From: Porodaedalea pini
Taxonomy: Eukaryota; Basidiomycota; Agaricomycetes; Hymenochaetales; Hymenochaetaceae
Assembly (NCBI GenBank): GCA_002794775.1
Contig: NBAY01000070.1
Span: forward strand, 155,653-219,652
DNA length: 64,000 nt
Direction of reading: 5' to 3'
The position numbers were made by a program, and so were the translations under genes. The notes below the pieces were generated by a model. That model ran no database searches. It was given only the letters and a program-made list of their open reading frames with translations, and had not been told where the DNA came from. This document shows positions 13,539 to 41,688 of this stretch, in pieces. Position 1 is the stretch's first letter. Every line of letters begins with the position of its first letter.

Positions 13539-13614
13539 ACATTGTTGGAATGATGAGCAGCATGAGCTCGATTGTTGCTGCGAGGCAGCTGATCACCGAG
13601 CTTTTAATTGATAT

Positions 13615-14053: not shown

Positions 14054-14066
14054 AAGCTGGTTCTTC
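14054..14066 (+). repeat. Target-site duplication of retroposon A (right)
   Basis: This is the second exact copy of AAGCTGGTTCTTC. The sequence after it continues the kinase 3' flank, as in unit 4. Confidence 0.85.
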
Positions 14067-19794: not shown

Positions 19795-19811
19795 CATCAC
19801 AAAATTTTGCA
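19795..19811 (+). repeat. Left terminal inverted repeat of the giant element
   Basis: CATCACAAAATTTTGCA. It matches the complement of 41,670-41,686 at 15 of 17 positions, the first ten being identical. Confidence 0.7.
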
Positions 19812-20316
19812 TCAAATGATATACACTTTTGGGAATGATAATGACACAGTAATGATTGGACCAGACTAAATTAGGTTATATGTAGCTTTAATGGGATGAC
19901 AAGGCTTCCTAAAGGCTTATAAGTGTGCATAATAATTGTGCAAGGTTGTAAGGGTAATTTAAGACTTTCCACAACGATATAAGGGCATGAAATAGTTGTA
20001 CATATGTTTCATGCAAATGTAATGTGCTGGAAAGTCTGTCACTTTTATAATAAGCAAGGCGTAAGTTTTGCAAGCGTCTCATATACTTGTGTAAGACTTT
20101 GGTGGTTATATACAATGCTTATAAGCATCTCTGCAAGTATTACATGGAAAGTATAATTGCATTAAATACCTGAAGAACTATGTCATATAACTACAATTGC
20201 ATTAAATACATGAAGAACTATGCCATATAATTACAATGTATCCTATCCAATAATGAGTGATGCTACAGCAGTGAGACGGGAACATTACAGTGCATAGAGG
20301 GAATGCGATTGAAATA
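19812..20316. other. Left subterminal region of the giant element
   Basis: No gene is seen. The stretch is AT-rich with several copies of a TTATAAG-like motif (for example CTTATAAGTGTGC near 19,916 and GCTTATAAGCATC near 20,118) and a near-repeat ATTGCATTAAATACCTGAAGAA / ATTGCATTAAATACATGAAGAA around 20,156-20,220. Subterminal motif clusters are common transposase-binding regions in CMC-type elements. That role is inferred here. Confidence 0.4.
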
Positions 20317-21971
20317 TCAAACAAAGGTCTCAATGTAGAATGAGATCAAGGGACAGAAGTCCTTCATACTGGCACCTATGCTCGTGGGGAAGCCAGGCCA
20401 CACCTTCAGAATGAGGAAAAGGGCCTCGACAGAGCCATTGTCCAATTGTTCTCCCCAGTACTCCCTTATTGGCTTCCGTATGTCAGGAATAACAGTGGTC
20501 GAGCTGTCAGTGGTGCCGAGATAGATGTGGCTCAATAGAGCATTCCATTGCTGATGCTCGTCCATTGTCATGCATTTGCGCAGCAGGATCAGTTGATCAA
20601 GCGCATACAACTCATACCAGAATACAAGCTCAGAAAGTTCCCACTGGACTTCCATTTGAAGGACCTTGTTGCGGCCTATGCAGTCCATTGAGATGGATTT
20701 ACCATGCCATACCTGTTGCTTAGTTCGATTGAATGGCTCCAAGTGGCACTTGATGCCAAACACGACCTTGATGGTCACCTTGTCAGAAATTTGTTGCTGT
20801 TTCGTGGGAGGCAAGTCGCTCGCATCTGGCATGTCACAATCATACGAAGAGAGAGAGATGTGACTGGCAGCCTGTCTGGACAGACTGGCATCTAGTACTG
20901 AAGGCATCCTGTTGTAGATGCGCTCTATGAATGGATCAGCAGTGTTCAGTGGGAGCGGCGTGGACTTCATGTAGTCACTGTGCATGATGGTCTTCCAGTC
21001 TCGCAGCCTGCGCCATATTGACTTGTCGAAGATGCCACCTTTGAGGAGCATATCAATCAATGTAGACCGTATACAGATGTAGTTGAGATAAAGATCTGCC
21101 ATCTTTTCTGTGCTGGGGTGGATGAGCAGGAAAGGTGGAGGGAGTGGGTAGAGTGCAGCGTGGGTCTTGTTCTGGCCTATGGTGCCGAGTCTCATCAGAC
21201 TGCCCAACATGACCTTGTGGTACAAAGGCAGGTCTGGTCGACCATCAACTCCATTTGGTATGCGGAGGATACGAGTGTAGTTAATGTAAGGCTCACTTTG
21301 CGCCTTCTGCTTCCCCTTGTTCTCTGCCTTTTCTTTCTTGGCCCTCTTCTTAAAGCTCTTCTTCTTTGAAGGTACGTTCACCCGGGACGTTGCATCAGTG
21401 GAAGGGACTGAAGACAAAGGTATTGAAGGAGGAGCCTGAGTGTGTTTCATAGCAGATGACGATGACGAAGGATGACTGAAAGCAGGAGCTCCAGGTTGAT
21501 GATTCTGAAAGCCATACATTTGCTCAAGGAGCTCGCTGATATCATCTTCTACCATGAACTGACTCCTTGACAGATCTTGCAAATGCACATCCAGTTGAAA
21601 GCTAAAGCCATCATGAAGAGGCCTTCCTTTAAATTGGAATAAGCTGCTTTCAACATACTTCAACCATAGAACACAATCCTGGATGGCAAAAATTTTTCCA
21701 TCTAACTGTTCATGCCGACAAATGAACCACACAGGTATACCGATCCAATAGAGGTGGTTGACAACAGAGGGCTCAGTAGTGAATGCGCCGTGAACAGGCA
21801 GGATCTCTGTTTCATAGGATTGCTTCAACTTGATGCGCGGCAGCATGACATTGAGGTACGTATGCAGCCCATGCAGTTCGAGAATGGAGTGCTGGATGTC
21901 GCATACAGTGAACAATGTCTGCCACCAGCTGCTTTTCAGGAGGCAAAGGCGCTCGACTCCAAACTGGCCTG

Positions 21972-22141
21972 TCTTATGATAATACTGTTTATGCAACCTA
22001 TTTACTTATGACTTCACTTGTTTACTCACATGACTATGACTTCCTACTTGTTATAGTATGCTATTCAATTGTACTGTATATAAGGACAGGCACTCTCACC
22101 CCTAATCTATAGCTTTGTCCCACTTTTCTGCTCGTCTAAGA
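21972..22141 (+). repeat. 5' LTR of Copia element
   Basis: 170 bp, starting TCTTATGATAATAC and ending CGTCTAAGA. The ends form a TCTTA/TAAGA inverted pair rather than the usual TG...CA. A TATA box (TATATAAGG at 22,077-22,085) marks the likely promoter. It differs from the 3' LTR only in CTCAC versus CTTGC near position 120. Confidence 0.95.
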
Positions 22142-22157
22142 GGTTATGAGCCTTGGC
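22142..22157 (+). other. Primer binding site, half-tRNA type
   Basis: GGTTATGAGCCTTGGC follows the 5' LTR directly. Its first part is complementary to GGCUCAUAACC, the anticodon-arm sequence of eukaryotic initiator tRNA-Met. It is not complementary to a tRNA 3' CCA end. This is the arrangement known for Drosophila copia, primed by the 5' half of tRNA-iMet. Confidence 0.6.
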
Positions 22158-22189
22158 TCCCTCCTACTCATTGCACTCCTCACTATTGC

Positions 22190-25100
22190 ATGTCAGACCG
22201 TCCTCCTCATTCACCAACACCACCACTACCAACTACTCCTAAACCAACTACTAGCACTTATCCTCGCACTCATGCACAAACACAGGCTGAACAACTAGTC
22301 GCAACTACTAGCGGCACTACTCAAACTCCTACTCCACCCATATCTACTGCCACACCAGCGCAACTTGAGCGCGACTTTGAAACACTACCGCCAATACTAG
22401 AGCACGTTACTCCACCTACTGAATCATCAGAAGGCGAACTAACTGATCCTACTACAGTGCCTCCTACTCGCACTCAGCGCATTCCCCGCTGCGAATCACC
22501 AATAATGTCAGCACTTAAAGCGGGTGAAATAATCAAACTATTTGATGGCATTGAACCACTCGACGGTGTCAAGAACTGGAAACTCTGGATATTCCGTATC
22601 TTCCAGGCTATCAATGCCACTGGCCACCCAACTCTTATGGAGGCAGGGCCATCCAATCCAGAAGAAAATGTCATTGCGAATGCCATCTATGCGGGTGTAA
22701 TCAAAAACATCCCTGACAAAATACTCAGAAACTACTTAGGCGTAACTCAAGTACACGTCCTACTTAAACAACTAAAGGTGTGTTACGACATACAAACTAC
22801 AGTAACTAACGCGTTAAATGAAGGAGCGTTATTCAACGTCCGAGGCCATGTGTCTCAACTTGACAAAACTTTGGATGAACTCGAACGACGCCACGCTGAA
22901 CTTTGCGCTCATGGAAAACAACCAGCCGACTCAACTTACTTGGCAGCAATAACCGCGGCGATACCACCGCAATATAAATATGTCATAACTCAACTCGAAC
23001 TTCAAATAAACACCGTGAACGAATACAATAAGAATAATGACGACCACGAGGATCTTGTTCTTACTCCGAACCGACTTATCCAAGAAACTCGTCAGGCCTT
23101 TGCAAACTGGAGCGCGGCAAATACTCGAAGAAATCCAATTGCCGCCGCGCACCCTTACCAAAGCGAGGCTACTCACCCCTACTTTAGAGGGCGAGGCAGA
23201 CACACTCGAGGTCGCGGCCGAGGCCGTGGCCGATTTGGAACTTATAGAGGCCGAGGACGCGGCCACAGAGGATACTCAAATAACTCCGATAACTCGAACT
23301 CAGGGAACTCTAATCCCTTTGTTAAATGTTATAACTGTAACAACTACGGGCATCAATCACCTGACTGCCCTCAGCCGTGGACTCAGAAGACTAAAGATGC
23401 CATGGCAAAGAAAGGGATTCAGGAGCATGCGAAACCTCCGACCACTGCCCACTCGCATCAGGCGAGCACGTCGAACGCGGCAAACGTACCTGCGACCGCT
23501 TCCACTTCCACTGCAGTCGCCCAAGCACACCAAGCGACAAATGTTGAAATGCCCAACTTCCCACAGACGCCACCATTCACTGCGACGATAACTGAAATAA
23601 CCGATGACGTCACTATGCAGTTCGACAATGAATCTGCACTTTTCGACTTCTTACACGACGATCACTACATGGATGCTATTGAAAACTTTGAGGCGAATCA
23701 TGTAAGCGCCACAGCCATTTACTTAAAAGAAAATTATGCTAATAAACTTTATCATACTATGGATATTATTGATTCTGGCGCCACTCTTCACTTAACTCCT
23801 TATTTTAACCGACTTACTAATGTCAAACAAACTGACCCAATCTCTGTTATAACCGCTAACTCACAAACTTTTATTACTTCAACTATAGGGATTTTAACTG
23901 TTGAGATCCCGAATGGTGATACTGTAAGCACCATCACTATTAAAGATGTTTATTATGCTAAAGAAATGCACATGACGCTACTAAGCCAGTCTAAACTTTG
24001 CGCAGAAGGATATGAATTTATTTATAAAGGAAATTTGTGTACAATAAAGGCACCTAGCGGTGAAATATGCGGTCAAATTCAATGTAAAAATAACCTGTAC
24101 TCTATATTAAAACATTATCAAATGAGCGCTGTGAAATCAATCACTTTGTTTGAACTTCATAAGAAACTCGGTCACTTAAGTTATACTTACCTCAAATGGC
24201 TACTTAAAAATCATCCTGAATCAATTCATTACAAAATTACTGACTCAACTGAAACTCAATGTCGTGTTTGTGTCGAAGCAAATATTAAAAGAAATGTTAT
24301 ACCTAAAACTCGAACTTCTGAATTAGCTAAAAACTTTGGCGATCATTTTCATATGGATATTTGGGGACCTGCGCCGACAACTGCTATTGGAAATTTTAAA
24401 TATTTGTTAACTTTAGTCGACGACTGTACTAGATGGGTCCAAATGAGTTTACTTAAAACTAAAGCGGATGGTTATACTGCTTACATCAAATGGGCTACTT
24501 TATTATCAACTCAATATGGAATTAAAATTAAAACACTACAATCCGATAATGATACTGTCTTTTTATCAAATGACTTTCAACTCTTTTTAGACAGTCAAGG
24601 AACTGTGTGAAAACTAACTGTACATGATACTCCACAACAAAATGGTGTAGCTGAACGAACTCATCAAACAATACTAAATCAAGTTAGATCAAACTTACTA
24701 GGACATAAATTACCGGACAAGCTCTGGGGAGAAGCCGTTAACTACTCAACCTTTATACATAATAGAACACCTAAAGCGGCAATTAACTTTGTCTCTCCAT
24801 ACTTTAAACGATTCAATAAAGCTTATATTTTTGATAACTTACATGAATTTGGCACTCATGTCATTTTCAGAGAAGAAAATACTAATAAACTAACTCCTAA
24901 AGGATCCTACGGCCAATGGCTATGTTGGGATGAAGAAAGTAAAGGACATAGAATTTATCATGATCAGAAAATAACTGTTGAAAGAAATGTCCAATTTCTC
25001 GAAGTTGCACCTTCTCGAATTGAAGGGGAGCAAACTGATACCCCACTAGAAAACAATCAAAACAACCCTACTGAAACTACTGAACCAAGAAGATCAGAGC

Positions 25101-26797
25101 GACAAAGAAAACCAACTAAATGTTCTAGAGGACTAGATTATACTGAAGAACTTAACCTTGCCATTTACTTAACTGAATTCAATGAATTTAATAATGAACA
25201 ACTTGGCGACCCCATCACTTTTCAACAAGCAATTAAGCGACCAGATGCACTTAGATGGGCTAAAGCCATGAAAGATGAAATTGAAACATTAAAAGAAAGA
25301 CAAACTTGGGAATACGTTTACCCACCTACTAATGCAAATATCATTGGCACTAAATTTGTTTACAAAACTAAACGGTTAGCCGATGGCCGAATTGACAAAT
25401 ACAAAGCAAGACTAGTTGTGCAAGGATATGCGCAACAGGAAGGAATTGATTTTTACTCAGATGACCTATTTGCACCAGTAGCACGACTTAGTACTGTGCG
25501 AACTATACTTTCCTGGGCAGCAACTAATGACTATGAAATACATCAAATAGATATCAAATCAGCCTACTTGTATGGTGAACTAGAAGACGGTGAAGAAATT
25601 TACATCAAACCACCACCAGGATATAATAAACTATTACCTGACTTAAAACCTGGTCAAATACTAAAATTAAAGAAAGCACTATATGGATTAAAACAAGCAG
25701 GAAGATGTTGGTACAAGAAACTAATGTCAATCTTAACCAAAATAGGACTAACTAGATCAGATAATGACAACGCAGTCTTTTTCAAAACAGAAAATAATAA
25801 AACTATACTAGTATTATTTGTACATGTCGATGACATTACAATAGCTGCGAAATCAACTAAACTATTAACTGAACTAAAAACTCAAGTTAGAAATGAAGTT
25901 ACTTACACTGATGGAAATGAAATTCATTGGTTACTTGGAATTGAAATCAAACGTAACCGTCAAACTAAAACTATAGCGTTAAAACAACAAAATTATATTG
26001 AAACTATTATCAAACGCTATAACTTAGAAAATGCTAAACTAAAGAATTCTCCTATGGAGCCAGGGAGACAATTATCAACTGATGACGCACCAGCCGATGA
26101 TGAAGAACTTACTTACATGGAAAAGGTACCTTATATGAACATGGTTGGAGCACTGCGATATGCAGCAGACTGTACCAGGCCAGATATTGCCTATACATGT
26201 GGAATACTCGCGAGATATTTAACTAACCCTGGTATTAAACATTTTGATGCCGCAAAACAATGTTTTCAATACTTACACTCAACTAAGGACTATTGGCTCA
26301 TACTCGGCGGAACTGAAAATACTCAACTTACTGGATACACTGACTCTGATGGAATGACAACTGAAGGGCATAAAGCCATATCCGGATACTTCTTTAAACT
26401 TGGCAATTCAATAACATCATGGTCAAGCAAGAGACAAACTTTAGTGTCATTAGCCGTAGCTGAAGCTGAACTTATTGCACTAGCTTATGCGACTCAGGAG
26501 GCTATTTGGCTAAAAAGACTTGTGAATGAGGTTCTGCAGGCTTCGTTTACGCCTACTACAATTTTTACTGATAATCAAGCCATTATTACTATGGCAACTG
26601 ATCCTGAGCGTAAATATTCTCAAAGAACTAAACATATTGACATACGAAAAGATTTCTTTAGAGATCATATTGATAAAGGAACTATTACTGTTAAATACAT
26701 CCCCACTGAACATAATATTGCTGATTTACTCACTAAAGCACTTTCAGTAACTTTACTCAAGCGCTTTGTAGAACAACTTAAACTAACATGCGCTTGA
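22190..26797 (+). pseudogene. Copia gag-pol polyprotein with one in-frame TGA
   Basis: One reading frame runs the whole length, broken only by TGA at 24,608-24,610. The chosen start is ATG 22,190 (MSDRPPHSPTPP), because the upstream in-frame ATG at 22,115 lies inside the LTR. Visible parts are a gag zinc knuckle (CYNCNNYGHQSPDC, near 23,325), protease (IIDSGATLHLTP, near 23,765), GAG-pre-integrase (ELHKKLGHLSY), integrase core (HMDIWGP near 24,350; LQSDNDTVF near 24,540; QQNGVAER near 24,640 after the stop), reverse transcriptase (KFVYKTKRLADGRIDKYKAR; FVHVDD near 25,820) and RNase H (TDSDGM near 26,340; FTDNQA near 26,570). The TGA replaces a codon between the second Asp and the Glu of the integrase. 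It ends overlapping the polypurine tract. Confidence 0.9.
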
Positions 26798-26804
26798 AGG
26801 GGAG
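26796..26804 (+). other. Polypurine tract of Copia element
   Basis: GAAGGGGAG directly precedes the 3' LTR and overlaps the pol stop codon. It is the expected plus-strand primer site. Confidence 0.8.
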
Positions 26805-26974
26805 TCTTATGATAATACTGTTTATGCAACCTATTTACTTATGACTTCACTTGTTTACTCACATGACTATGACTTCCTACTTGTTATAGTATGCTATTCA
26901 ATTGTACTGTATATAAGGACAGGCACTCTTGCCCCTAATCTATAGCTTTGTCCCACTTTTCTGCTCGTCTAAGA
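26805..26974 (+). repeat. 3' LTR of Copia element
   Basis: 170 bp, with the same TCTTA...TAAGA ends. It is followed by the GCCTG target-site duplication. Confidence 0.95.
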
Positions 26975-27640
26975 GCCTGCTTGCAAGCACCGCCTGTATG
27001 TCTTGTCCATTCTGTTGTCAGACCGTTCTTGCCTGCATATTGAGCCACTAGTTTGCATTTTCGCTGCTATCAAGAGCAGTGCAGTTTCCAAATTGTCGAT
27101 AAGTTCTTGACACAACTGGCCGACTTGCATCTGTGGTTCGTTGTCATGCCAGTGCTCCTTGTTACCATCCTTGTCAAGCAGGAGGACCTCCATAAAGTCC
27201 TCAGACTCTTTGGGATCGTACAAAGGAATGTCTATGATGAGAGAACAAAGGCGCACAAAGCTACCCATGGTGTTATTCACATTGAATGGGATGCAAGCGT
27301 GATGGATGGAAGTTTCTGAGAAAAATTGGGGCCATCAGCTGTATTCATGATCTCCCCAAAAGCCATCGACATGTTTGATAACACCAAGTTTCTCATTCAC
27401 TATTGGGTATTGTGGTACCCAGTTTGCATTCAGACTCGAGATGACGTTCTTGTTATACTGCATATCCACCAAAACTTGGGCATCTAGGGCTCGTACTGGG
27501 TATACACTCTCATCTGCATGTGAATACTTTAGAATGCATTTTAGAATCAGCAGCTCGCAAATGTATCGAGATCATGCATCTTTTTCAAAGGTAAGGAATT
27601 CTGTTGTTGTCCTTCACTCCTCGAACAATGCTCATTGCCC

Positions 27641-27832
27641 CATGAGCCAGGCTCATCGCCCCATGAGCCAAGCTCTTCGTCCCACTGGTACGAGCCTTGC
27701 TCCTTGTGCTCCGAGCCTTGCTCTTTGCCCCCCAAGCCTTGCTCTTTGCCCCCCGAGCCTTGCTCCTTGCCCCATGAGCCAAGCTCCCACTGGCACGAGC
27801 CTTGCTCTTCACCCCATGAGCTATTCTTGCCA
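27641..27832. repeat. Imperfect 15-24 nt tandem repeats encoding a Gly/Trp/Glu-rich segment
   Basis: There are many diverged copies of (C)GAGCCTTGCTCTTTGCCCC and CATGAGCCAAGCTC. On the minus strand they read as repeats such as GKEQGSGGKEQGLGGKEQ at the N-terminus of the minus-strand gene. Confidence 0.6.
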
Positions 27833-27870
27833 TTTGTACCATACCAAGAGTAATCACCTCCACTTGACAT

Positions 27871-30800
27871 CTTAAGATACGTCTGTCGCAAGTTACATGG
27901 TTGATGAAGGATTGAAATTTGGAGAACTTTGAGAAAGCCTTGATGTAGGATGAATCAGGATTGGACTGAAATGTCTTTGAAAATGTTTGAGCCTTCAGTG
28001 CATTCAAACAAGCAACTTTCTATGACACACCTCGCAATTTCAATCTGCCTCTCCACAGAGAAATCCTTATAGTGTTGGGCCCTGAAGATGACGACCTTCA
28101 GCTCAGCAAATATGAATTGTAGCTGCTGAGATACACAAGACAGTTTGCTACTGCAGACCATCAATGATATGTCCACGAGTATGCACTAGGCTGACTCTTA
28201 GGGACTTTGTGATGGTCAGGTGGGTTCTTCAGGTGGTGGTAATGGGTTGATTGATGGTGGGAGGCAACTTGAAGTCGTCGATGAGAGTGGCAGCGGCAAT
28301 GATCGACTTTGGACCGAGTCATCATGTGTGGGCCTGGTTGCATCCCTTCTAAATTCTATAATTTCTAATATTAATGGGGGCAATCAACAAATGCAAGCCA
28401 CGACTTCCCACGGGTCTCAGTAAGGTGCGCCGATCCTCTTGGTGGTGCAGTGGAAGCACAAAATCTTTGGTTTCTGCAAGCTTCATACTACTCCACATGT
28501 ACTTGAAAATCACAAAAAAACCATTATATATATTATAATTTGAGTGAGACTCAAATGATTCAAAGATAGATTGAGGGACTCTTCAGAAGTTCATTATCTA
28601 TCAAAATACAAAAGTTTCTGTCACTAAATTGGCCATATCTCAACATATTAAACATTTCAGGAAATTTCCTCAATTAAATTCCAGATTATCTACCAAAAAG
28701 CAAGTCTAGTTAATGATACTAGTCAAGATCTTGTTGTGCTGAATTGCAAGAGAGCTGGAAGGAGACAAAGGGTACTGTCACAAAACACATTTAGTAATTC
28801 TCTAGGTGCCTTCCATCTACCAGAGAATACACACCTTATACTATCACTCCACAGTACACATCTTTCATTTTCATAAGTCATCAGTTACAACCTGACTTTG
28901 CACCTTTTTGTACACTTGTGTACAGTCCAATGTAGTGCTCAATTTGTGCTTAGGTGTCAGCCATCCTATTATACCACTCTCTTTCTTTATTATAATAGAC
29001 AGATACAAGCCCTGTATACACATTCAAACACTTTGTTTCATCAATTTCTATCTTATACTTTATGTTTTATGCACTGATTCCCACTCTGTCTGATATGCTG
29101 AGCACTCCACACTCACCTACGCACCAGCCAGCCCCTACAGCCAAGGAAAGGGAATCCCGACTTGGACTAGAATCCCAAAGTAGGACGTGGACCAATCCCA
29201 CCGGTGGCCAACACCTCTCCCCCAACAAAAGTGAAAGTCCTGCAGGATTCAACGACTTGCACCCCAGAATCACTCAGTTTCCAATTAATCCCTCGGCACA
29301 GGTATGCCACACCAATGCACAAAACCCTCATCCCGACTCCAAAAGCTGACCAAGGCTGATTCCTGTCCCAACCAACAAGCACAAAACTCTCAGAATCACT
29401 GACTGCTGACATCCCGATGGCACAAGGTGACATGAGTAGAGGATACCACTAATCGGATGAGCCAAAAGGCCTCTGGGAAGCACCCCATTTCTCTTTTCAT
29501 GATTATTTGCCGATTTTGGACATGTCAGATGTTCCTGACCATGTACAGTCGGGTGTCCCACAGTTTCACATCCCGTGTGGGGATCCACCCTTGTTGCTCT
29601 CTCTAGTATAGTAAAATATATTTATAGGAAAGCATATAGCGCATCATTCAGCAGAATAGACTACCTCTGACTCCTCCTATCTAAGTCCCCACCTGTCTGT
29701 CTCACTGAGGTCCTGCAGAAGGAGTCCCAACTCGAACCGCCCCTCCACCACTGTTGCCATCACCATGTGGATGTTGGCCAAATCCTGCCCATATCTATCT
29801 TGACATCCTTCTCATATCCAAATCACCCTTGGCTGCTCCTCTCCTGACCTCCTCCTACACCACATTTGCATCTGTGTACTCCTCTCCTGACCTCCTCCTA
29901 CACCACATTTGCTTCTGCATACTCTGCTCCTGACCTCCTCCTACACCACATCTGCCTCCACGCAGTACACCACATTTGCCTCCACGCAGTACACCACATT
30001 CGCTTCTGTGTACTCCGCTCCTTCCTGTTAGGATCTCAAGTGCGCTTCCTCTATTTCCCCTTTTCTTTAATTGTCTTCATCACTGCTGATGTCCCCTCCC
30101 TCCCCCTCCCCATCAGACTTCATCTGCCATCACTCCTTCCACTGATGTCACCCACTTAGTGATCGTGTGACCCTTGCACACAGTCACAGGTGATGTCGTC
30201 TGCTCATTAGTAAGAACATTCTACAATGTTCTATCACATTCCATTTCCCAGGAACGTCGTCCTCGTTATAGTAGTAAGGTCTCACAAGTGCTGAGTATAT
30301 AGGTAGCTCGTTCACCTGTATTGTCCCTTACCCCAGCATTCTTGGAATCTACTACTGCTTGCTCTTGACAATGTCGTCTGCAACGCTCATGCGTTTGACT
30401 CCTCCCCTCTTCGCTCTTGTGTCTGTGGGCGTGGCGGTTGCCTGAATGGTGTCCGCTATCATTCTCCCACGTTGCTTAACCTCTGCTCACATTGTATGTG
30501 GGTATGATGATTAAGTGATCATTGAGTACGTGGTCGTACTCTAACACTTCCCCCATAGTTGTTGGGAAGCAGCATCATGTCCAGTGCGCACCACTCCTGC
30601 TCCTGCTGGCTGCAAACTCTTCTCTAGAGAGTGGCTGGACTTGCAGGCTCCCCTCCACTCCTATTCCAAATGAATGTTGTGTGGTATGGGTGATTGAGAG
30701 CATATATAGTGGGATATAGGATGAATATGAAGGAAATGAAGTGTTTGAGCATGATAGGGATTGGTATAAGTGTTTGAATGTGCTTCAGTATGATAGGAAG

Positions 30801-31254
30801 AGCCAACATTGAAGGATCAAAATTTTTAATTACATTTTAATTACATGGAGATTCTGAGCGCTTGGCATCTCATGCCGGAGTACATGGGAATGCACGTGCG
30901 ACTCACGGCAATTGCTGCCAACTAGGCTCAGGCCCCACTGCTGCAAGCCTGACTCTCACACCAATGTCTCCCTCCCCCCTATCTCATTCTCCGCAACTGT
31001 AGCCCTTCGACCGTCCTCAATCTTTTACTTGACCACAACCAAGCACACGCTCAATGGCCAGATTACGAGTAGTAGGTGCAATCATGCTACCTTGCTAGAC
31101 TGAGCTTGCAAAACAGCACAGACCACTGCTCAGGTTTGGTAAGTAATTGTTTCCTTTTCTTTCTGCATAGTCAATAACTCATGGGCTTTGTTACTTGCCT
31201 GAGCATCTGTGTACCGCTTGAATGACCAACACACCAAGGATCAGCGACACATCA
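27871..31254. other. Giant-element interior without a confident gene
   Basis: A minus-strand open stretch at 27,955-28,176 (FSVERQIEIARCVIESCLFE) may be an upstream exon of the minus-strand gene or of a separate one. Near 30,290-30,445 a TATA-like TATATAGG stands about 80 nt before a short hydrophobic frame (MSSATLMRLTPPLFALVSVG) that stops after 24 codons. The rest (28,450-29,830 and 30,450-31,250) is AT-rich or low-complexity with only short frames. I recognise nothing there. Confidence 0.4.
29836..29964. repeat. 43-bp tandem repeat, three copies
   Basis: Copies start at 29,836, 29,879 and 29,922, each with CTCCTGACCTCCTCCTACAC and then CACAT(T/C)TGC. A shorter unit with CAGTACACCACATT follows twice up to about 30,001. 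Confidence 0.75.
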
Positions 31255-31435
31255 GGGATCAGCAATGTTATTCTCCAGTGGATCATTTTCCCATCTGTTG
31301 ACAATGAGTCAACACAGCCAGATAATGATCACAAAGACTTACGTGGATTCAAGAACGAGACACTTGCAAAGCTCCTGGCCCCTGCAGAGGTTCAGCTGCT
31401 CACTCCAGAGTAAGTACTTTGAGATAATCCTCCAG
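31255..31435 (+). repeat. Duplicated DUF6698 exon fragment
   Basis: About 170 bp closely match 39,430-39,600, an exon of the downstream DUF6698 gene. Both encode DNDHKDLxGFxNETLAKLLA and end at the same splice donor CCAGAGTAAGTAC. A second short copy of the start (CTCCAGTGGATCGTTTTCCC) follows at 31,430-31,460. The fragment has no neighbouring exons and is not a gene. Confidence 0.75.
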
Positions 31436-32226
31436 TGGATCGTTTTCCCATCCGTTGATATGAGTCGACAACAGCAGCTGTTGTAGCAAGCCATGATATG
31501 GACTTCGTGCATTACCCAACAAGTTTGAGCACTAGAACTCAAGAAAGAGGTCTGTATACTAAAACATATCATATTGCTTTATCGGCTGACCATCGACAGC
31601 CAGATCAAGCAAATACTGGGATCTGAGCTTTCTGGGATCAGGACGGGATTTTTCGCTGTCTCGAGCCTTTTTTCCCCTCATCTTTTGACAAGTGCTCCCA
31701 GGCTCAATAGCAACTGCTGTCATAGTCTAGCCAACCCTGCCATCATTGCCAGCCTAGTGCATGCAATAGGTGGGGTGGAGTATGCAGTACCGCAAACTAT
31801 AGTTAGCGGTGCTGTTTTTTGATAGGGTGAAGGACGTGCATCAAACATACATTGTCATGTCAGGTGAGATATTATGATTGATTCAAAAAGAGGTGCATAC
31901 TATTCTTTCTTCTGTCTTTCTACATGCAGCTCACTGACATCTCCATACTTTGCGGTAGCTTTATTGGTTGACACCGGCTGACAGAGCCATGAGTGAAATC
32001 ATGGACATTATATCTCGGTAGCGTGGCTGGCCAGGGACTTGCCGGTTGCATATGTCAAGGAATCATCATTTGGAACACTTGGGCGGGCAAATTGCAGATC
32101 TATTGGCTGCATAATAGGAATGGAATGATTAGGTGGTCACGCACTGTAGAGATAAATGCACCCTTATCTGGTCCTAAAGCATTCTCCATGTCCCTTTCCC
32201 TCGCTTGTTCTGCACCATCCAAAAAA
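31436..32226. other. Giant-element interior upstream of the Plavaka gene
   Basis: No gene is recognised. It holds short frames only and the likely 5' region of the transposase gene. Confidence 0.4.
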
Positions 32227-35200
32227 ATGTCATACAGTTGTAGTGGTCCTGGGTGCCCGCATACGTCCATGGGAATGAATGGCCTCAGTCATCATGAAGC
32301 TGCCTGTCTTTACGTTCAGGCTGAAGTGAAGCGAGTATTGCTTGATGCGAAGGAGAGACGAAAGAAAGCCAAGAAGGTGAAGCTCTCGCATGGAGTACAT
32401 GTTGTCTTGCTTCTCTTCACTTAAGTCTAGATTACTCAATTTTTTTTAAAATGTAGTCGGCCTCCTTCGCTGAGACTTATGATGATATGGGTGTGGCGCC
32501 CGACTTTGGCCCTGACCTTGATCCTGCTGAAAGTGCACCCAGCCATCCTCTTGCTGTGCCTGACCCACCGGCTCTATCAGCGGCCGGCCACATTGTATGC
32601 CGACATGTACTTCCTGCCCGTTATTGGGATGCATTACCTGATGTTCCTACCAGTGCAGCCGTGATTCAAGCAAACTCTAGCATGGAAGAAACAGCAGCCA
32701 ATTTGGGAGACCCAGAGGCTGTGGATGATACTCCTTCCCGCCTATTCCAGTCTGAACGCAACAAGTTTGGATTGTGTAAGGTCTTCAGACGTATCTCTTG
32801 TCCGGAAGCCCCCGCTGTAGGAAACGTGTATGATAGGGAGCCCTCACCTGCAGATCGAGGCACACAAGAAAATCCATTTGCCCTGCATCTGAATTTATCC
32901 TCATTTCTTTTCAACCAATGGTTTTGGTCGGGGTCCCTTACTAAAACAATTGAGGATGCAGAATGGCTTCAAGCTCTAATAGGCTCGGATGACTTCATTG
33001 CGAAAGATGTTCTTGAAATGAATATATGGAAGGTCACTAAGCAGCTTCGAAACAGCTCTCTAGATGAGTTTTTTGACCCCCGTGATGGCTGGATGCAAAG
33101 TGGTCCGAAGATACGCATGCTGCTTGGACACTTGCATCCTGAAGCACTGAGTTGCCTTGATTTTGAAATTAATGAGTTCCTTCATTGACTGTTGGTCACT
33201 GTCATTCGGTTCATGTTCAAGAGCAAAGAGAAGAGTGCAGGTTTTTGTTACAAGCCTTACGAGCTTAGGATTCAGTCACCGCACAGAGGCAAGGAGCAGA
33301 CAGTCCATGGGGAATTATATTGGTCAAAGAAGTTTCGTGATGCACACGAGGAAGTGCAATGTCTCCCCTGGGACTCTGGCGACAATTTTCCAAGAGCTGT
33401 CATTGCAATGCAGCTATGGTCAGATGGAATGTTGGCTGCAAAGTTTGGCAGTGCAAAACTCTGGCCCATGTATCTCCAGTTTGGCAACCAGTCAAAGTAC
33501 GAGCAAAGAAAGTCTGAAGCATGTCATCATATTGCTCATATACCTTCCATAAGCAAGTTGTCTCTTGAAGATTGGACTTTTCATCTCATTATTTCATTTG
33601 TAGCTTCCAGGTGATTTCAATGACTTTGTTCAACATCATGCACAGGGAAATCTGGCATCGAACACACTTCAGACACATTGCCGGTGAGAAGTAATGCACA
33701 GTGTATGGAAAACTATGCTGGACGACAAATTTCTTCATGCATGGAAACACGGCATGGTTGTCCACTGCAGTGATGGGGTGACACGACATTTGTATCCTCA
33801 CATCTTCACTTACTCTGTGGATTACTCTGAAAAGTATGTATCGTTCAATTCATATGGATGACAAACTAAGTATTCTTGCAGAGTTCTGCTTGCAACAATG
33901 AAGCACTTAGGAAAGTGCCCATGCCCCCATTGTCCCATGGAGAGTGGTGCAATATTGTCTTTGGGTAAACACGCAGACTCTCGAACCCGAATCAAGCATG
34001 CTCGAGTTGATGATACATGGCGCCGTCGTAAAGTAGAAGTCGCTCAGGACATCATCTATAATAAACGTCGGCATGTTGCAAATGCAAGTGTCAGTTGGCT
34101 TTTAGACATGCAATTGCTCACGCCTGTTGAAGTGAGTTTGCTTGGTTCGATATGGAGGTCTTACAGACTCTGATGTGTTTCTAGAATGCTTTTTCTGCAA
34201 GGTTGGGTCCCCTCAGTTTTGATTACCATTCCATGCTTGTGGTTGATGTCATGCATGAGTGGGAGGTTGGCATATAGCAGCAGATCTTCACTCATCTCAT
34301 TTGCATTCTTGATACTTTCACATATGCTCAATTGAACAAGGTGCATGAGCTAGACAGAAGGTTAGTGCTTGTTGACGAAATGTTAAGTGGAAGGCTCTTC
34401 TCATGACTCAGTAGGGTCTGATGTATACCTCCTTTTTCGGATGCGATACGAACATACAAAGGAAACATATCAGAGATGAAACAAATGACCGCATACAGCT
34501 TCGAAGACCTTTTATAGGTGAGCAAGCAAAGGCAGAAACAAAAACAGTAGCTTAACATCTCCCCACATAGTGTGCATTACCAGTGTTCGAGGGACTTCTA
34601 CCAGAACCTCATGAGTCCATCATTTGCAAACTCCTATATTGCATGGCAACCATCCATGCACTCGCAAAGCTCCATATGCACACTGATGCTACAGTCACAG
34701 CGTTGGACAGTGAAACAAAGTGATTTGGTACTGCACTGCGAAGCTTCAATGACAAGACATGTTCTGCCTTCATGACTGATGAACTTCCATCGGAATCCCA
34801 GAAGCGACTGTGCAGATCACACCGCAAGACAACAGGAGGTGATACCAATACTGCAGACTTGATACGTCCCACAGTGGAGAAGTCCTTCAATATAAACATG
34901 TCCAAGATCCATGCCCTTGGGGACTACGCACATCATGTTCTCATGTTCAGGACGACCGACTCATATAGCACTTCCATTGTCAGACACTTCTCTTCATTTT
35001 TGAGACCCAACATTTACTCACTTCACAATGTCAGGGTGAAACTGAGCACAAACAGTCAAGACAAAATTACTTAAGAATGAACCGCGTGAACTTTGTTCAA
35101 CAAGTGACAGAAATTCAACGCATCCAGTCTAATCTTGCTCACATGGTGGAAAAGTTCAACAAGTCTGCGCCCAAAATTCCACTGGACGCCATCAATGACA

Positions 35201-36333
35201 GTTTAGATGACGATAACATGCGCTACTGCATAGCAGCGAGGGGAATGACGGATACCATTAGATCATGGTTGCATCGGAATGATTACGATCCTGCATTGAC
35301 TGTAAGATTGCTGTTTTTCAGAATAACATATGACTGACATTTGCTCAGGATTTTGAAGAATTATTATTAAATCACATTTTTGCTTGGTTGAAGAACTTTG
35401 ATTGTGATGATGATGAACTTCAGTTCTTGACTGTTGATCGAGAGGACGTCATCATTAAAGACGATAAGATGTACGAGCACAAATGTCTACGCATCAACTA
35501 CACAATATATGATATGCAGCGGGAACATGATTCTATTAATCCTACCTCCATTACTTCGGATGTCATGCTTCTATTGAGGGACTCGGATGCTGTCTCAAAG
35601 TCTATATCACCGTTCTGGTACACTTGAGTGATTGGGATATATCATGTCGATGCACGACTCAGGAGCAATGGAGACACGGCATCAAGTCATTTGGATTTCC
35701 TGTGGGTTCATTGGTTCAGCTGAGCTGTGGAAGATAGGTTTGGCGATGATGCCTGTCGATTGGAACACATAAGATTCGTTACAAGGGAAGACGAGTCCCT
35801 GCTGTTTGATTTTGTAGATCCAGCTGCTGTCGTTCATGCTGCCCATTTAATTCCCACATTCCATTATGGACGCACAGATGCGCTCCTGTCTCCATCTTAT
35901 CTAGCTCAAATCAAAGAACCGAATGATATTATAACAGACTGGGAATCATTCTATGTGAATAAGTAGGTCACAATTGCCTTATCTCCCATTGGACTGAAAC
36001 TGATAGATCTACAGATTTGCTGACCGTGATTTATTCATGCATCACTGAGATGGTGGAGTAGGCCACACCACAGCACACAATGCAGAGAATGCAAACCATG
36101 TACCAGCAGACTTGTATAGCAAGCTAGGCATACACCACTCTGATGAAGAAGATGACAAGATGGACATTGAACCTGCAGAAGAAGTTAAGACTTTGCTTGA
36201 GCGCATTCAAAGCAAAATGGGAGATGACGGACACGATAGTGAAGGCGGAGATGAGGAAATGGAAGACTCTGAGTCTGAAGGATTGGTACTGGACAATGAA
36301 TCTGCTGATGAGGAGATGCCAGTCCAAAATTAA
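32227..36333 (+). pseudogene. Plavaka-type transposase, multi-exon, decayed
   Basis: The start ATG at 32,227 opens a small Cys/His finger (CSGPGCPHTSMGMNGLSHH), joined across an intron to the exon at 32,457. Family landmarks in order are NPFALHLNLSSFLFNQWFW (near 32,873), FCYKPYEL and VHGELYWSKKF (33,245-33,335), AMQLWSDGMLAAKFGSAKLW and MYLQFGNQSKY (33,407-33,500), VMHSVWKTMLDDKFLHAW (near 33,690), CPCPHCPMESG (33,919), DVMHEWEVG (34,247), GETEHKQSRQNYLRMNR (35,037-35,087) and HLIPTFHYGRTDALL (near 35,850). In-frame stops lie at 33,685 (TGA), 34,275 (TAG), within about 35,717 (TGA) and at 36,046 (TGA). Plavaka elements belong to the CMC (CACTA-like) DNA transposons of basidiomycetes. The C-terminus is acidic. 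It is inactive as written, and may be the ancestral mover of the giant element. Confidence 0.85.
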
Positions 36334-36351
36334 TTGGGCACTCTGTCTCCT

Positions 36352-36411
36352 TGAGTAGTCTGAGGTGCCGTTATGATTGGCAGACAAAGGAAGGTGTGGA
36401 TTATACTCTTG
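36352..36411 (+). repeat. 58-60 bp direct repeat, copy 1
   Basis: It contains TAGTCTGAGGTGCCGTTATG and GTGTGGATTATACTCTT. It is repeated with few changes at 36,669-36,726. Confidence 0.7.
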
Positions 36412-36668
36412 ATGAGAGCCATTGTGATGAGTTGGCATCTGTGACACCAGAAGAAGGCGAGCAGAGCAGCTGTCATTTTGTGAGATTCAGGGAAGCAACA
36501 ACATGGCAAGGCCTGCGCCAACGTGACTGGGTGCATGAGCCTGAGGAGACTGAACCTGCATGGGCTAGCTGTGTGCAGAGATCACAGCTGGTGAGATGAT
36601 GGATGCATAAGCCAATGACGGATGGCTGGAGCCGATGGAGTAGTACTCAGAACAAGAATCGTAACTTG

Positions 36669-36726
36669 AATAGTCTGAGGTGCCATTATGATTGGCAGAT
36701 GAAGGAGGGTGTGGATTATACTCTTC
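36669..36726 (+). repeat. 58-60 bp direct repeat, copy 2
   Basis: It contains TAGTCTGAGGTGCCATTATG and GTGTGGATTATACTCTT, about 317 bp after copy 1. Confidence 0.7.
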
Positions 36727-37752
36727 GAGCGAGATGTTGCCTGAGCCACTTTGCAATAGTCTGAGGGAATGTCTGATGGCTGTCAGATGGCTGGTGCCTG
36801 TGCAAATTTACCAACGAGTTCGAATGAATACTTCGAGGAGGCTTGATTGTAGAAAGACTTCAAGCAGGCAGTCATCGTTTCATATGCTGAGGCAGACTCT
36901 GAGCTGATGGTGAAGAGTAGTTTCAGAATGTAGGAAGTTGAACACATCTGGCTGCTCGATGATGAGTGATTACAGCAGGTAAGGGTCGAAGCCTGCAAGA
37001 GATGAGTCGAGTTTGGACTTGAAGAGATCGGGGTGAGGTGCGAGGATGTCAGACAGGCTCATGAAAGATGAAAAGTCAATTTGCTAGGACTCCAACGATA
37101 AGCTAACAATCGGAGTTGAAGGTTCCTTTGTTGTACAAGATTGTAAACTACTTTCTTTTCAAGCTCACGCTGCACCCCCACCTTGCCAACTCATCAACGT
37201 ACTTCTCGAGTGACAATGACAAGAATCCTCTCATTATCTATAGTCATGCTTCAGTTGAACAGTGGACGATTTTGTGACAGTCAGATGCACCATTCGAAAC
37301 TTGATTCTCATTTTCTTTCCTCCAGGATTTCCCTTTTTTTTGATATGAGGCGGCAGTACCTGTGCAAGTATGTGGATGGTGAGAACTGTTGTACAGATGC
37401 AAGGGCAAGCTTGAATACTGACTATACAATTTTGATCAGCTGGCTGTGTGCAATCGGGCGGCGTGTCTGCCTTCTTCTGTACTTGTGTCGGTAAGGTGAT
37501 CTTGCCCATGTGTAAATTGAGTGTAGCTAAGAAATGACAGACATACGGGCCCTTGAATGACAGCGAGCTCGAGCTGAGGCGTGCCCGGAACCATATGCTT
37601 GATTTGGTGAGCATGCTATGCATGCTTCTTAACTTAAGAAGCTCAAAACTAACTTTTTAGCATTTCAATGAGTTCTTGGTATGCCAACAACTCTGTAATA
37701 TTCTCCAGATACCAGCTGAATCATTTCTGTGTCTTATGACATGTGCTGTCAG

Positions 37753-38661
37753 TTCTTGAAGGCAAACACAATGTTGTTCTCTTTGCAATTGACTGTTTGG
37801 AGTCAATGCAAGTGCTTCATGATGACCTGAACAAAGAAGGTGCACAGACCTCCCACCTGCTTGCTGCACTTGAGGCCAATATGAAAATTCAGAAGCAGAA
37901 GGTTGTCAGGCCAAATGACACTGCTGGGATTTTACTTTTCAATACCGTGAGAAGCTCTCAAACTCCCACATATACCACACCGTACTGAGCATCTCAAAGT
38001 CTTGCAAGAAAGAAAATATGGTGTGCGGAGCTACAGAGTACAAAGAATAGGACATTCATATACAAGCCTGTAGGACAGATTGATGCCCCAAAGATTCAAA
38101 ATCTTATCCAGCTCCTTTACGGTGTGCTATACTTTGACTCGCAGTTGTATGTTAAGCAATTGCTGATCCATTCCTCTCAAATGTATCTAGAGGCAAAGGA
38201 TAACCATAAGTGGCTTCATTATGAGTATCCACCATCAGAGAATCGTGTCCCTATGGGTGATGTCTTTACAAGCTGTAACTGGGCCTTACGAGATGGGTAA
38301 GTGTTGCCTATCTGTATAGGCTCATTTGTGTAAAACAACTTTTTTCTACCAGAGCTCCAAAATCTGGCATCAAGCATCTTTTCCTCATTACTGATGAAGA
38401 CGACCCTCATCCCAGTGTGAAGAATGCTCAACTTGTCATGTCTGCTCAAATGACACTTTTGGTAGCACTTGAGTTAGCATTGCATTTGTTTGACGCCATG
38501 AACACTTTGCTTAGGACTTGACTCAAGCAGGTGTCTCCGTTGAACCATTCTTCATCAGCATGGAGGAGAGTCCATTTGACCCTACCAAGTTCTATTCAGT
38601 GTGGCTTTCTTCCTTCTCTCTTCAAGTTCTGGCACTCTCACTGAAACACATGAGATCATAA
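37753..38661 (+). pseudogene. ku70: Truncated Ku70-like gene (N-terminal vWA domain only)
   Basis: Ku70 with Ku80 forms the DNA-end-binding ring of non-homologous end joining. Landmarks of the fungal Ku70 vWA domain are seen in order: NVVLFAIDCLESMQVL, LLAALEANMKIQKQKVV, NDTAGILLFNT, RTFIYKPVGQIDAPKIQ, PPSENRVPMGDVFTSCNWAL, HLFLITDEDDPHPS, DLTQAGVSVEPFFIS and FDPTKFYS. At least four introns are visible. The joins at 38,122/38,190, 38,297/38,352 and 38,461/38,515 keep the frame. The first join (after 37,946) could not be phased. The frame stops at 38,659-38,661. The DNA-ring beta-barrel, C-terminal arm and SAP domain are all missing, and no start codon is certain. It sits between the Plavaka transposase and the DUF6698 gene inside the giant element, so it is a captured fragment. 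Whether it is expressed is unknown. Confidence 0.75.
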
Positions 38662-38813
38662 CGCGATATAGCCAAGAGGGGATATCTCACCATGGTTGTG
38701 TTTTCCAGTGAAAGTTGCACAGCCGCTGATCTCCCCCGCCCAGCCTTATAAACTGGTTAGGTGTTACTATTCTCCTTTCTGTATTCGAACACTCACCGTG
38801 ATGTCTCCCCCTC

Positions 38814-41125
38814 ACAGAATGCTCACCCCTCAGCACCCGATGACACCGACTCCCCCTATGACGGATTTGCAGCCTAGCTCCTCAGACTCCTCTTCTGACT
38901 TGGACTCAACCAGTGCTTCATGACAGGTGCCAGAGGAAGAGTTTACACGAAGTGGAAAGAGGAAGGCATATGCTGGCTTCTTCCTCTTGTTCTCGTTTAT
39001 CTGTTTACTTTACTCATTTGCAGTACTGCAGCGGACATCTTCGTCAGCAAGGGATGCTACCTTGCTAGAGCATATGAACCATGGACTAGCCCACAACAAA
39101 TTCTTAACAAAGGTATTCCTAATGCAAAGCTTAGCCCTGCTGAATTACAACAAATCACTGATCTGTCGTAAGTGATTGGTTTTATTCTACTTTATTCTTT
39201 CAATAATCAGTTCTTGTACCAGTGTCCACCATGCTGTGGATGCTGTGAAGGCTTTATTCGATGTCAACACCTTGCTGTACAAGAAGGTTGTCAAGGCGGA
39301 TACTCAGACATTCAAATATATAGTTAATTGCATGAGTCATTGCTTTTTTTCCCTCTGCATAGATAAACTCTCACAATGTTTACAGTTGCGTGAGGGTCAG
39401 TGTGCCGCTCGGTCTGCTGATACATCAGGAATCAGGAAAATTATCCTCCAGTGGATCATTTTCCCATCTGTTGACAACAAGTTGACACGGCCAGATAATG
39501 ATCACAAAGACTTACATGGATTCGAGAATGAGACACTTGCAAAGCTCCTGGCCCCCGCAGAGGTTCAGCCACTCACTCCAGAGTAAGTACTTTGAGATAA
39601 TCTTAAACAAAAGAAGACGTGCTCATGCCTTTCCTATCACATCATTGCTGATTTATATTACATACTTTCTAGATATCTAGCTTTGTTGCATGCGGACAGG
39701 GCCATGGTAACAAACAAAAAAGGAGTTACCTGTGAACTTGATGGCAAACATAGCCAAGTCTTTGCCTTCAAAAATGGTATTTATCATCCAAGGAACCCTC
39801 TGAAGGGCTTCTTGAAAGGTAATTTGATCGTCAGGGCAAGTCTTCTTCCTTTTTCTTTCTTAATGTGTTTACATCTTTTTGTAGGCCTATAAACACATCT
39901 TTATGGTGCCTTCTTCTGCCAACTCAGGTCCTGCTGTCAAAGGCTCAAGGTGTACAAAAATAGGTAATGCAGAGATCCATGGTATGACCAAAGTTACTCC
40001 AGGATCACTTGCATACATTACTGTCCAGGTATTTTATTTGTTTCATGGTTTGCGCATATATAATACTGAAAAATGTATTACTACCAGGTCTACTTTGCTC
40101 TTAGCGCAAGGCTCCATTTCTCTACATCAAGTGCACCAGAAATACCCGAGATGTTTAATGGTATTATTCAATTGTTCAGGTCTGACATCCCACATGTCAA
40201 GAGGTACACTGCTGAGCTATTGATTTGGTGGAATCGGTATGTTCATCTGCATCTACAGTCGAACCTGTGTATAAGCATACTGGTGCATAAGCATTACCTG
40301 TACATAAGCATTGAATTTTTGATCCACCGAACTCGGTAGGCGGAGAATTCAGGGTCCTATAAGCATTATCCCCATAAGCATTTGACATTAAGATTTGAAC
40401 AAAAATTTAAACTGAAAATGCTTATCTAGAGGTCATCACGTGACCATATATACCCCCATATGGATGCTCTTGTGATGGTATGCGGCTTGGCAAGCAATGA
40501 TTTTTGTGGCCTGCAGAAAGTAGATAGATAAGGCAAAAAAAAAAAGCACCTGTCAGATACCCTTACTTGCCATGCACTCTTGCAGCTAATGTGCTTTTTC
40601 AAAAGCCGGACCAGTGCAGAGTTCAGTCAGACACACAAGCTGTTACCAAAGGTCCAAAGCTGTGGCAGGAGCTCCAGAAGGAAATCAACAAAGGTCTAAA
40701 TGCTAATATTCATAGTTATTTCTCTTAAAATGTCCCTTGCAACTATTTAACAGCTGAAAGTAATGTAAATGTCTTCACCTGCATGCGTGGGTCTTGACAT
40801 TGGATTGCGTGAGACAGCATTCCATAAATGGAAATAACTTTATTTGTTTATTACGCAATAACGCAGACAAGCATTCCTGTGTATAAGCATTGGCCAACAT
40901 GTCCACCGAGGCCAATGCTTATACACAGGTTCGACTGTATGTGATATTATGGTCCCTTACTAACCCTTACTCAGAATTATCTTTCCAAATACCCAAGCGG
41001 CAACCAATCCTCATGACCTAGGTGCCATAGCTGATATTGAAGACTTCTATCGAGACTGGACTGAGGATGAGGAGGGCAATGAAGAGGGTGAGGAGGACAA
41101 CAAAGAGGAAGAGGACAATGTATGA
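38814..41125 (+). CDS. DUF6698-family protein, multi-exon, with a MITE in one intron
   Basis: The putative start MSPPHRMLTPQHPMTPTPP is Pro/Ser-rich. A frame change near 38,920-39,010 may be an intron or a lesion. Later exons join well: VHHAVDAVKALFDVNTLLYK (39,220), HKDLHGFENETLAKLLAPAE (39,503), FKNGIYHPRNPLKGFLKG (39,768), IHGMTKVTPGSLAYITVQV (39,975), AEL(L)IWWNR (40,212) and IIFPNTQAATNPHDLGAIAD (from 40,976, after the MITE-bearing intron), then an acidic tail to TGA at 41,123. The pattern (GxxxHGMTxVTxxSIAYxxxQ, then LLxWWNRxIFP) is that of DUF6698, a protein family of unknown function abundant in Agaricomycetes. Its place inside a transposon suggests cargo. The 5' part is uncertain. 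Confidence 0.7.
40256..40937. mobile_element. 682-bp MITE with 23-bp TIRs and TA duplication
   Basis: The left end is CAGTCGAACCTGTGTATAAG + CAT and the right end is its exact complement (40,915-40,937). TA flanks both sides (40,254-40,255; 40,938-40,939). Internally, the motif CATAAGCAT(T) is repeated many times near the left end. The right end forms its own hairpin: CCTGTGTATAAGCATTGGCC at 40,877-40,896 is complementary to 40,911-40,930 with a 14-nt loop. No transposase frame is present. CAGT-like ends and TA duplication point to a pogo/Tc1-type parent. It lies wholly within an intron of the DUF6698 gene. Confidence 0.9.
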
Positions 41126-41669
41126 ATTTTGATTGAAATTTCCACTCACATTCAATCCAATACCATCCATCTTGAACAGCTATTTCTATTTTCCCTATTA
41201 TCGGTCACATATTGTTATGTGCTATTTCAATTTCATTCTATTCCAATACTTCTATCTAATTGTCATCCACGACAACTGCTGCTAAGTGAGCTATAACTAT
41301 TATACACATGAGAACCAACAGTGCGCATCATCATCAATTAGAAAGCATTATAAGTAATTTCTTACTTTTATGACTCCAACAACTCTTCCGCCACCTTGTA
41401 ATCCTGACTTTAGAATTTATTTAATTATATATAAGTCTGCAATACTTCTGCTAACTTATACTCTATTGAAAGTCTTATCATGTATTAAAATCTCTCATAA
41501 GTGTTTTGATATATTATAATTTGGTATGACTGTTATGCTTTTCGGTAAGTATTATGGTGGATTGTAAGATGGAGTTCAGATTATATTGCTCTATAATTAT
41601 GCCCAAAATGATTATATGTATTACATGTCTTTTAAGACTTATAATTGAATATAATTAGTTATAATACTC
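41126..41669. other. Right subterminal region of the giant element
   Basis: No gene is seen. It is very AT-rich, with repeated TTATAA/ATAAGT motifs (for example near 41,345-41,360 and 41,630-41,645), matching the character of the left subterminal region. Confidence 0.45.
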
Positions 41670-41686
41670 TGCAGATTTTTGTGATG
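41670..41686 (-). repeat. Right terminal inverted repeat of the giant element
   Basis: Reading inward it is CATCACAAAAATCTGCA, with two mismatches to the left end. It is followed by AC (41,687-41,688) and resumption of the tandem-array sequence. Confidence 0.7.
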
Positions 41687-41688
41687 AC

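Follow-up and report, generated by a model that had tools for sequence, protein, structure and literature searches.

The window analyzed here, 64,000 nucleotides of Porodaedalea pini contig NBAY01000070.1 (C70:155,653-219,652 of the 53.3-Mb, 201-contig genome that served as our search space), holds a transposable element with terminal inverted repeats (TIRs) that encloses a Plavaka transposase gene, a DUF6698 gene, a large gene that we term orfL, and a fragment of the host Ku70 gene. We consider it probable that this block is an aged PlavakaB cut-and-paste DNA transposon, altered by CpG mutation, that in its full-length form reaches about 15.1 kb and codes for three conserved products, namely orfL, the Plavaka DDE transposase, and DUF6698. 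A first-pass annotation had seen in it a giant cargo-carrying Plavaka element. A single, unusually long Plavaka transposon is what we find as well, and the extra length is largely that of the three-gene module; cargo in the Starship sense is not supported, as orfL and DUF6698 are constrained and the Ku piece is apparently non-coding. The features are listed below in window coordinates, C1b being a full-length copy elsewhere in the genome.

19795..41686: whole element, 21,892 bp including nested insertions
19793..19794, unstranded: left AC copy of the target-site duplication (TSD), identical to the right copy
19795..19811, plus strand: left TIR, CATCACAAAATTTTGCA, whose 300-bp end is matched in at least 40 places
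20263..27870 (approximate, span by homology to C1b), minus strand: orfL, a conserved gene split by Copia, with a premature TGA near 20,317
21971..26975, plus strand: nested Copia long terminal repeat (LTR) retrotransposon of about 5.0 kb, outside the element proper; LTRs at 21,971-22,142 and 26,804-26,975, 99% alike
28329..30872 (approximate), unstranded: 2.5-kb insertion of unassigned class with a 2-bp duplication, in a gap between reference positions 3613 and 3612
32227..36333, plus strand: Plavaka (CMC/CMCT, DDE) transposase gene of about ten exons, decayed in the window
37735..38620 (edges approximate), plus strand: piece of the host Ku70 gene taken up by the element, spanning exons 2-5 and their introns and lacking a start codon
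38801..41125, plus strand: DUF6698 gene of eight exons with an acidic C-terminus, interrupted by a miniature inverted-repeat transposable element (MITE)
40256..40938, unstranded: the nested MITE of about 0.68 kb, with TIRs and a TA duplication, outside the element proper
41670..41686, minus strand: right TIR, CATCACAAAAATCTGCA, whose 300-bp end is matched in at least 40 places
41687..41688, unstranded: right AC copy of the TSD
14386..14406, plus strand: empty site at a paralogous position of the tandem array beside the element, from flank alignment

The borders, coordinates, and TIRs first proposed all stand. The TIRs of the window copy match at 15 of 17 positions, reading both flanks returns the 2-bp AC duplication, and the joined flanks align at 80% identity with window positions 14,096-14,727, the alignment crossing the junction with about nine extra bases directly to the right of the element, which upholds the paralogous empty site at 14,386-14,406. 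In the window alone, with three mismatches allowed, the TIR pattern gives four matches against 1.15 expected, which is near chance; no further exact end pair was found inside it, that is, no closer Plavaka ends within the block. The Copia and MITE insertions had been recognized earlier, but a count of two falls short of the three present, and it is the third, at 28,329-30,872, that brings the net length by subtraction down from the 16.2 kb first given to about 13.65 kb, against 15,129 bp for full-length relatives. A Tc1-type transposase open reading frame (DDE_3, HTH_Tnp_Tc3_2) adjoins the element at window positions 17248-18264.

On C1b, the transposase gene occupies positions 6,320-10,422 in about ten exons, and by eye it carries an N-terminal C2H2-like finger and a DVMHEWEVGVW segment. 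PlavakaB transposases are further recognized by DDE residues with C(2)C and H(3-4)H motifs and by a branch of their own in the transposase tree. Against the Plavaka Pfam profile PF18759 (cut-off 26.3 bits), a C1b exon scores 34.1 bits and that of another family copy (C8:1123365) 33.6 bits, while the decayed window copy, at 23.4 bits, falls under the cut-off; the Plavaka assignment of the first-pass annotation is thus sustained by the family. Of 175 candidates for the C-terminal transposase exon, 84 were scored, and the exon turned up in 26 places with an identity of at least 89%. DUF6698, also rightly named at first, lies at 12,889-14,568 on C1b in eight exons, and its window exons exceed the Pfam cut-off. 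The initial gene list of Plavaka, Ku70-like, and DUF6698 genes was incomplete, having overlooked the large minus-strand orfL, which runs on C1b from about 3,155 to 469 and in open copies encodes about 875 amino acids with one intron. Pfam gave no match to its main frame and only a sub-threshold match to a frame overlapping its first exon. Among its genome matches (58 of 158 candidates scored, sister families included), 39 of 59 are free of stops, and the stops in the other 20 are all TGA. One element gene has named homologs in Sanghuangporus (42%), Phellopilus (34%), and Polyporales (22-26%), with its two top matches at 46% and 43%. A relative of orfL at C2:519835-522018 (55%) keeps a 735-amino-acid open frame without stops and has no Plavaka, transposase, or DUF6698 match nearby among the matches listed; it is possibly a stand-alone or domesticated copy.

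Copies, ends, and age of the family

Searches with the 300-bp ends found at least 40 places for each, with identities of 97-100% on the left and 98-100% on the right. The 16-base TIR core CATCACAAAAWTYTGC has 166 exact matches in the genome (85 forward and 81 reverse), and a reversed-pattern control has none. Among the 100 of these sites used for pairing, 29 inward-facing pairs exceed 5 kb (5,955-33,970 bp), and every one joins a left-type to a right-type end. Dozens of further copies elsewhere share the ends and content of the element, and the absence of such copies, which the first-pass annotation had named as grounds for giving up its reading, falls away. The same sites and core also give two pairs of 1.7-1.9 kb and ten of 160-176 bp, the latter (C2:1790157-1790316, C4:1348898-1349057, C9:441781-441940, and seven others) probably being MITEs of this family.

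We read 13 copies at both ends. C1b and C13 measure exactly 15,129 bp each and are 99.7% alike at unrelated sites; C42 measures 15,090 bp, C30b 21,376 bp with a 6.2-kb insertion, and the window copy 21,892 bp with its three insertions, and the eight remaining copies are shortened by internal deletions to 5,955-11,697 bp. Nine have identical 2-bp TSDs (AC, GA, TA, GC, GG, AG, TT, CT, AG) and one a 3-bp TSD (ATA). With a sister element, C18, included, TSDs are present in 11 of 14 elements (ten of 2 bp, one of 3 bp, three with none), and all 14 end in 5'-CATCA..TGATG-3'. Comparison of the copies shows that the element moves as a unit with precise ends, with 2-3 bp duplications in most copies read. 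In the parts of the account of Kojima (2025; PMC12730594) that we draw on, PlavakaB is defined by CATCA..TGATG termini and a 2-3 bp TSD, and the present element resembles this CMCT-clade group in its Plavaka transposase, its 5'-CATCA..TGATG-3' termini, and its 2- or 3-bp TSD. It differs by its length of about 15 kb and by orfL and DUF6698, no relatives of which are named in the main-text passages on PlavakaB. A TET/JBP dioxygenase, the hallmark of TET+ transposons, is likewise missing from the 40 C1b frames scanned with Pfam and from the scanned window frames, although a gene of short exons could escape such a scan.

Might the element be a misjoin of several repeats in the assembly? Some contigs do break within it, and contig C121 carries a near-duplicate of the window locus, the insertion and its left flank included, at 99.3% identity over 9.9 kb. 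The C121 locus is a second haplotype or a duplicate, and a misjoin would have to account for two 15,129-bp copies at unrelated sites, for matching TSDs, and for an independent sister family in the same order, so that we regard an artefact of this kind as extremely improbable. The right flank of C1b, starting from its TA duplication, recurs at C70:4003-4104 and 577-780 (L044) with a different neighbor on the other side, which may reflect a rearrangement at the element junction or an assembly effect.

Ten copies were compared over their first 4.65 kb. Eight young ones differ from C13 at 9-24 positions, and their pairwise differences approximate the sums of their differences to C13, the star-like pattern of a burst. 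C42, with 64 differences from C13, branched off earlier. Identity between C1b and the window copy is about 94%, and 559 of the 708 differences of the latter from C13 are CpG-to-TpG/CpA changes; its observed/expected CpG ratio over the first 2.2 kb is 0.46, against 1.13 in C13.

Parts of the DUF6698 gene are repeated in shuffled form at C1b 3,975-6,014, a duplicate that the window copy lacks. Direct repeats of 649 bp at 5,050-5,698 and 14,005-14,653, 98.6% identical, are spaced 8,955 bp apart. Collapse between them, which would have recurred, shortens the element by this spacing (15,129 - 8,955) and explains the 6,174-bp class, represented by C10, C14, and C31 (6,196 bp in C31). We considered and rejected amplification of one derivative, for these three share almost no derived changes: C10 and C14 differ at 32 positions from each other, against 16 and 20 from C13. 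The deletions would then be separate events, and they probably arose independently. No second copy of the 649-bp part was found in C18 by blastn.

Sister families and selection

The sister element C18 is 13,124 bp long, with TIRs CATCACAAAATTTTGCCT and CATCACAAAAATCTGCCA and a GA TSD, and carries orfL, transposase, and DUF6698 in the same order as the main family. Further members of its family were found by sequence match on C48, C124, C4, and C23, and a third group (C4:1.09-1.11 Mb and C36:4-13 kb) is 61-72% identical in the matched parts. Between C1b and C18, the ratio of nonsynonymous to synonymous substitution rates (dN/dS) is 0.16 for orfL over 564 codons, the longest C18 open frame being part of the gene; 0.17 for the transposase over 1,088 codons, with one exon aligned at only 18/47; and 0.11 for DUF6698 over 348 codons, with dS saturated and two of the eight exon peptides placed in the internal duplicate of C1b and not in the gene. 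A neutral simulation with the mutation spectrum of the window copy, run at the lower change numbers seen within the family, gave a nonsynonymous fraction of 0.60-0.65 (about 0.64), or about 0.5 as dN/dS; the between-family fractions are 0.43 for orfL, 0.50 for the transposase, and 0.51 for DUF6698. Within the family, the transposase is also below neutral (P 0.013 and 0.030). Orf​L, transposase, and DUF6698 are thus under purifying selection between the two families, and because orfL and DUF6698 are constrained and recur in the same order in the sister family, they look like transposon genes and not passengers.

DUF6698 also accompanies Plavaka beyond the main family. In a set of 18 DUF6698 and 28 Plavaka loci, hand-picked among the matches listed and excluding the main family, 12 of the 18 DUF6698 loci have a Plavaka match no more than 15 kb away, where 0.3 would be expected (binomial tail 4e-18, which overstates independence because the families are related). 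At two further DUF6698 loci (C18 and C124), exon search finds transposase exons nearby that are absent from the Plavaka profile matches. The two genes are divergent at 2.5-3.2 kb, once at 8.9 kb, or parallel at 5-14 kb, and this variety of arrangements argues against a single origin event. In another Plavaka family, on C107 (L043:1-7001), the DUF6698 gene is transcribed divergently and a C2H2-like finger lies close to where the transposase begins; the TIR pattern of the main family was not found in the 7 kb read.

The Ku70 fragment and its slot

The host Ku70 gene lies on C9 at about 444.5-447.7 kb on the minus strand and by inspection has a SAP-like C-terminus; a second Ku-core locus lies on C5. 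What had been called a Ku70-like gene in the element shrinks to host exons 2-5, frameshifted and without a start codon. The fragment (C1b 11,824-12,710) corresponds to the host gene between the late part of intron 1 and the early part of intron 5, at 94.6% identity over 892 aligned columns. It lacks the Ku core and falls short of the full frame, Ku core and SAP domains included, of a functional Ku70 gene; a PDB sequence search with it gave no match. It is absent from C18.

A functional Ku70 cargo gene was therefore a candidate that we rejected, given the frameshift, the missing start codon, and changes not distinguishable from neutral. Another proposal is that the fragment works in the form of a truncated protein, or by giving rise to small RNA that lowers host Ku70, and so steers the repair of excision breaks. 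Its high identity in 39 places besides the host gene among the matches listed (40 of 46 candidates scored) is in keeping with this, as is an alternative splice acceptor that, by inspection, would keep the frame open. With the host splice site, however, a one-base insertion (+1 frameshift) leads into a TAG, the window copy has the same letters, the host start codon is missing, and the piece is lacking from C18. Its nonsynonymous fractions within the family are in the neutral range (0.55 against 0.60, P 0.19; 0.53 against 0.60, P 0.36), and the lower value against the host (0.43, P 0.06) owes part to constraint on the host gene. Nor does the within-family dN/dS of about 0.3 speak for selection, because simulating neutral change with the CpG bias yielded a figure close to it. 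Function of the fragment in either form is in our view very improbable.

The retained introns point instead to the DNA of the host chromosome as the template of the Ku70 piece. Capture may have come about by template switching, probably when the repair of a gap left by excision or replication went wrong, after which the piece would have been passively carried along by the amplification burst. One of the MITE-like pairs, on C9, lies about 2.6 kb past the 3' end of the host Ku70 gene and could be relevant to the capture. In Pack-type transposons (Pack-MULE, Pack-CACTA), captured host gene fragments lie inside TIR ends; Ku70 exons 2-5 are similarly an intron-keeping host fragment captured and co-amplified inside TIR ends, but this capture sits in a large element that keeps its own coding genes. 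No report of transposon capture of a Ku70 gene fragment was found by title, in a literature search that left most subscription journals outside its coverage. In C18, frames in the same slot match a WD40/THOC3 propeller weakly, at E 0.001-0.03 and under the cut-offs; the DNA of this slot is common to five sister copies, and stretches of about 40-56 bases at a time also occur in repeats on C31. A second capture, of a WD40-like piece, is plausible from these matches but less certain. The starts of contigs C11, C39, C123, and C163 and the end of C23 coincide at one position of the Ku segment (query position 192), which is what assembly breaks in a repeat would produce.

A candidate three-protein transposition system

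These results lead us to a broader proposal, which we hold tentatively and rate somewhat short of an even chance: that part of the Plavaka superfamily is a three-protein system in which orfL and DUF6698 are dedicated proteins required together with the transposase, and in which pieces of host genes are repeatedly taken up at one fixed slot, located between the transposase and DUF6698 (Ku70 here, a WD40-repeat gene in the sister family). The transposase, in a catalytic role that we infer, would bind the CATCACAAAA... ends, excise the element, and insert it with a 2-bp stagger. In CACTA/En-Spm elements, which encode TNPD and TNPA, the transposase is paired with a second DNA-binding protein. The present element is similar in having a DDE transposase of the same broad clade together with extra protein lacking an obvious enzyme domain, but orfL and DUF6698 have no recognized relation to TNPA, and their DNA binding is putative. 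By this analogy, orfL and DUF6698 could support transposition from within, through end binding and synapsis or through anti-silencing.

Several of our results weigh against these readings. Three of the 13 copies (C31, C10, and C19) have no TSD, and the allelic empty site was not found at the one site tried, that of C1b. None of the four long copies examined (C1b, C13, C42, and C30b) has an intact transposase, each bearing at least one lesion, with different one-base losses in exon 2 of C1b and C13, and another C1b exon scores only 22.2 bits against the 26.3-bit cut-off of PF18759. Within the family, selection on orfL is weak or without signal (P 0.05 and 0.61), and that on DUF6698 appears in one comparison (P 0.013) and not in the other (P 0.22). 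A protein search with DUF6698 returned no homolog at E 0.001. For orfL, whose role we only infer, a Foldseek search with the fold model of its Phellopilus homolog P0004 (predicted template modeling score 0.48) gave a best match of E 2.7 and none under E 0.001. Finally, DUF6698 lies within 15 kb of 12 of the 28 Plavaka loci and is missing from that distance at the other 16, and at four of the 18 DUF6698 loci (three on C55, one on C102) Plavaka and orfL are both missing from the vicinity.

Two other accounts of the extra genes deserve mention. One holds that orfL and DUF6698 are long-term anti-silencing partners, comparable to TET/JBP genes, and take no part in transposition. The strong CpG decay of the window copy (0.46 against 1.13 in C13 over the first 2.2 kb) makes methylation-linked pressure likely, and such a role has been proposed for TET/JBP in fungal transposons in the parts of PMC12730594 consulted; Pfam, however, recognized no enzymatic domain in orfL or in the DUF6698 exons, and we think this account unlikely, if still worth weighing. 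The other is Starship-like cargo, with orfL, DUF6698, and Ku70 as passengers gained for host benefit and spread by the Plavaka transposase. The element is several times the length of its transposase gene and does contain host-derived sequence, but orfL and DUF6698 are constrained and keep the same arrangement in the sister family, DUF6698 is found near other Plavaka families too, and the Ku piece, besides its frameshift, cannot be told apart from neutrally changing sequence, which makes passengers of this kind improbable. Starships, in the portions of the literature covered, are likewise large fungal elements with extra genes, but their enzyme is a tyrosine recombinase and the descriptions of them come from Pezizomycotina, whereas the present element has a DDE transposase and TIRs and comes from a basidiomycete. 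Pfam on 40 C1b frames recognized Plavaka, DUF6698, and Ku/VWA pieces, plus two weak matches below their own cut-offs, and no tyrosine-recombinase captain domain.

The three-gene arrangement itself was not found described in the literature on Plavaka, on Plavaka with Ku70 or cargo, or on DUF6698, as far as a coverage extends that omits most subscription journals. With this element, DUF6698 and orfL, two anonymous protein families, gain a likely biological home, and some of the “hypothetical protein” annotations in Agaricomycetes become candidate transposon genes. A Plavaka element has, moreover, been able to spread at a length of about 15 kb, and its young, near-identical family allows gene capture, recurrent internal deletion, and CpG decay to be tracked together.

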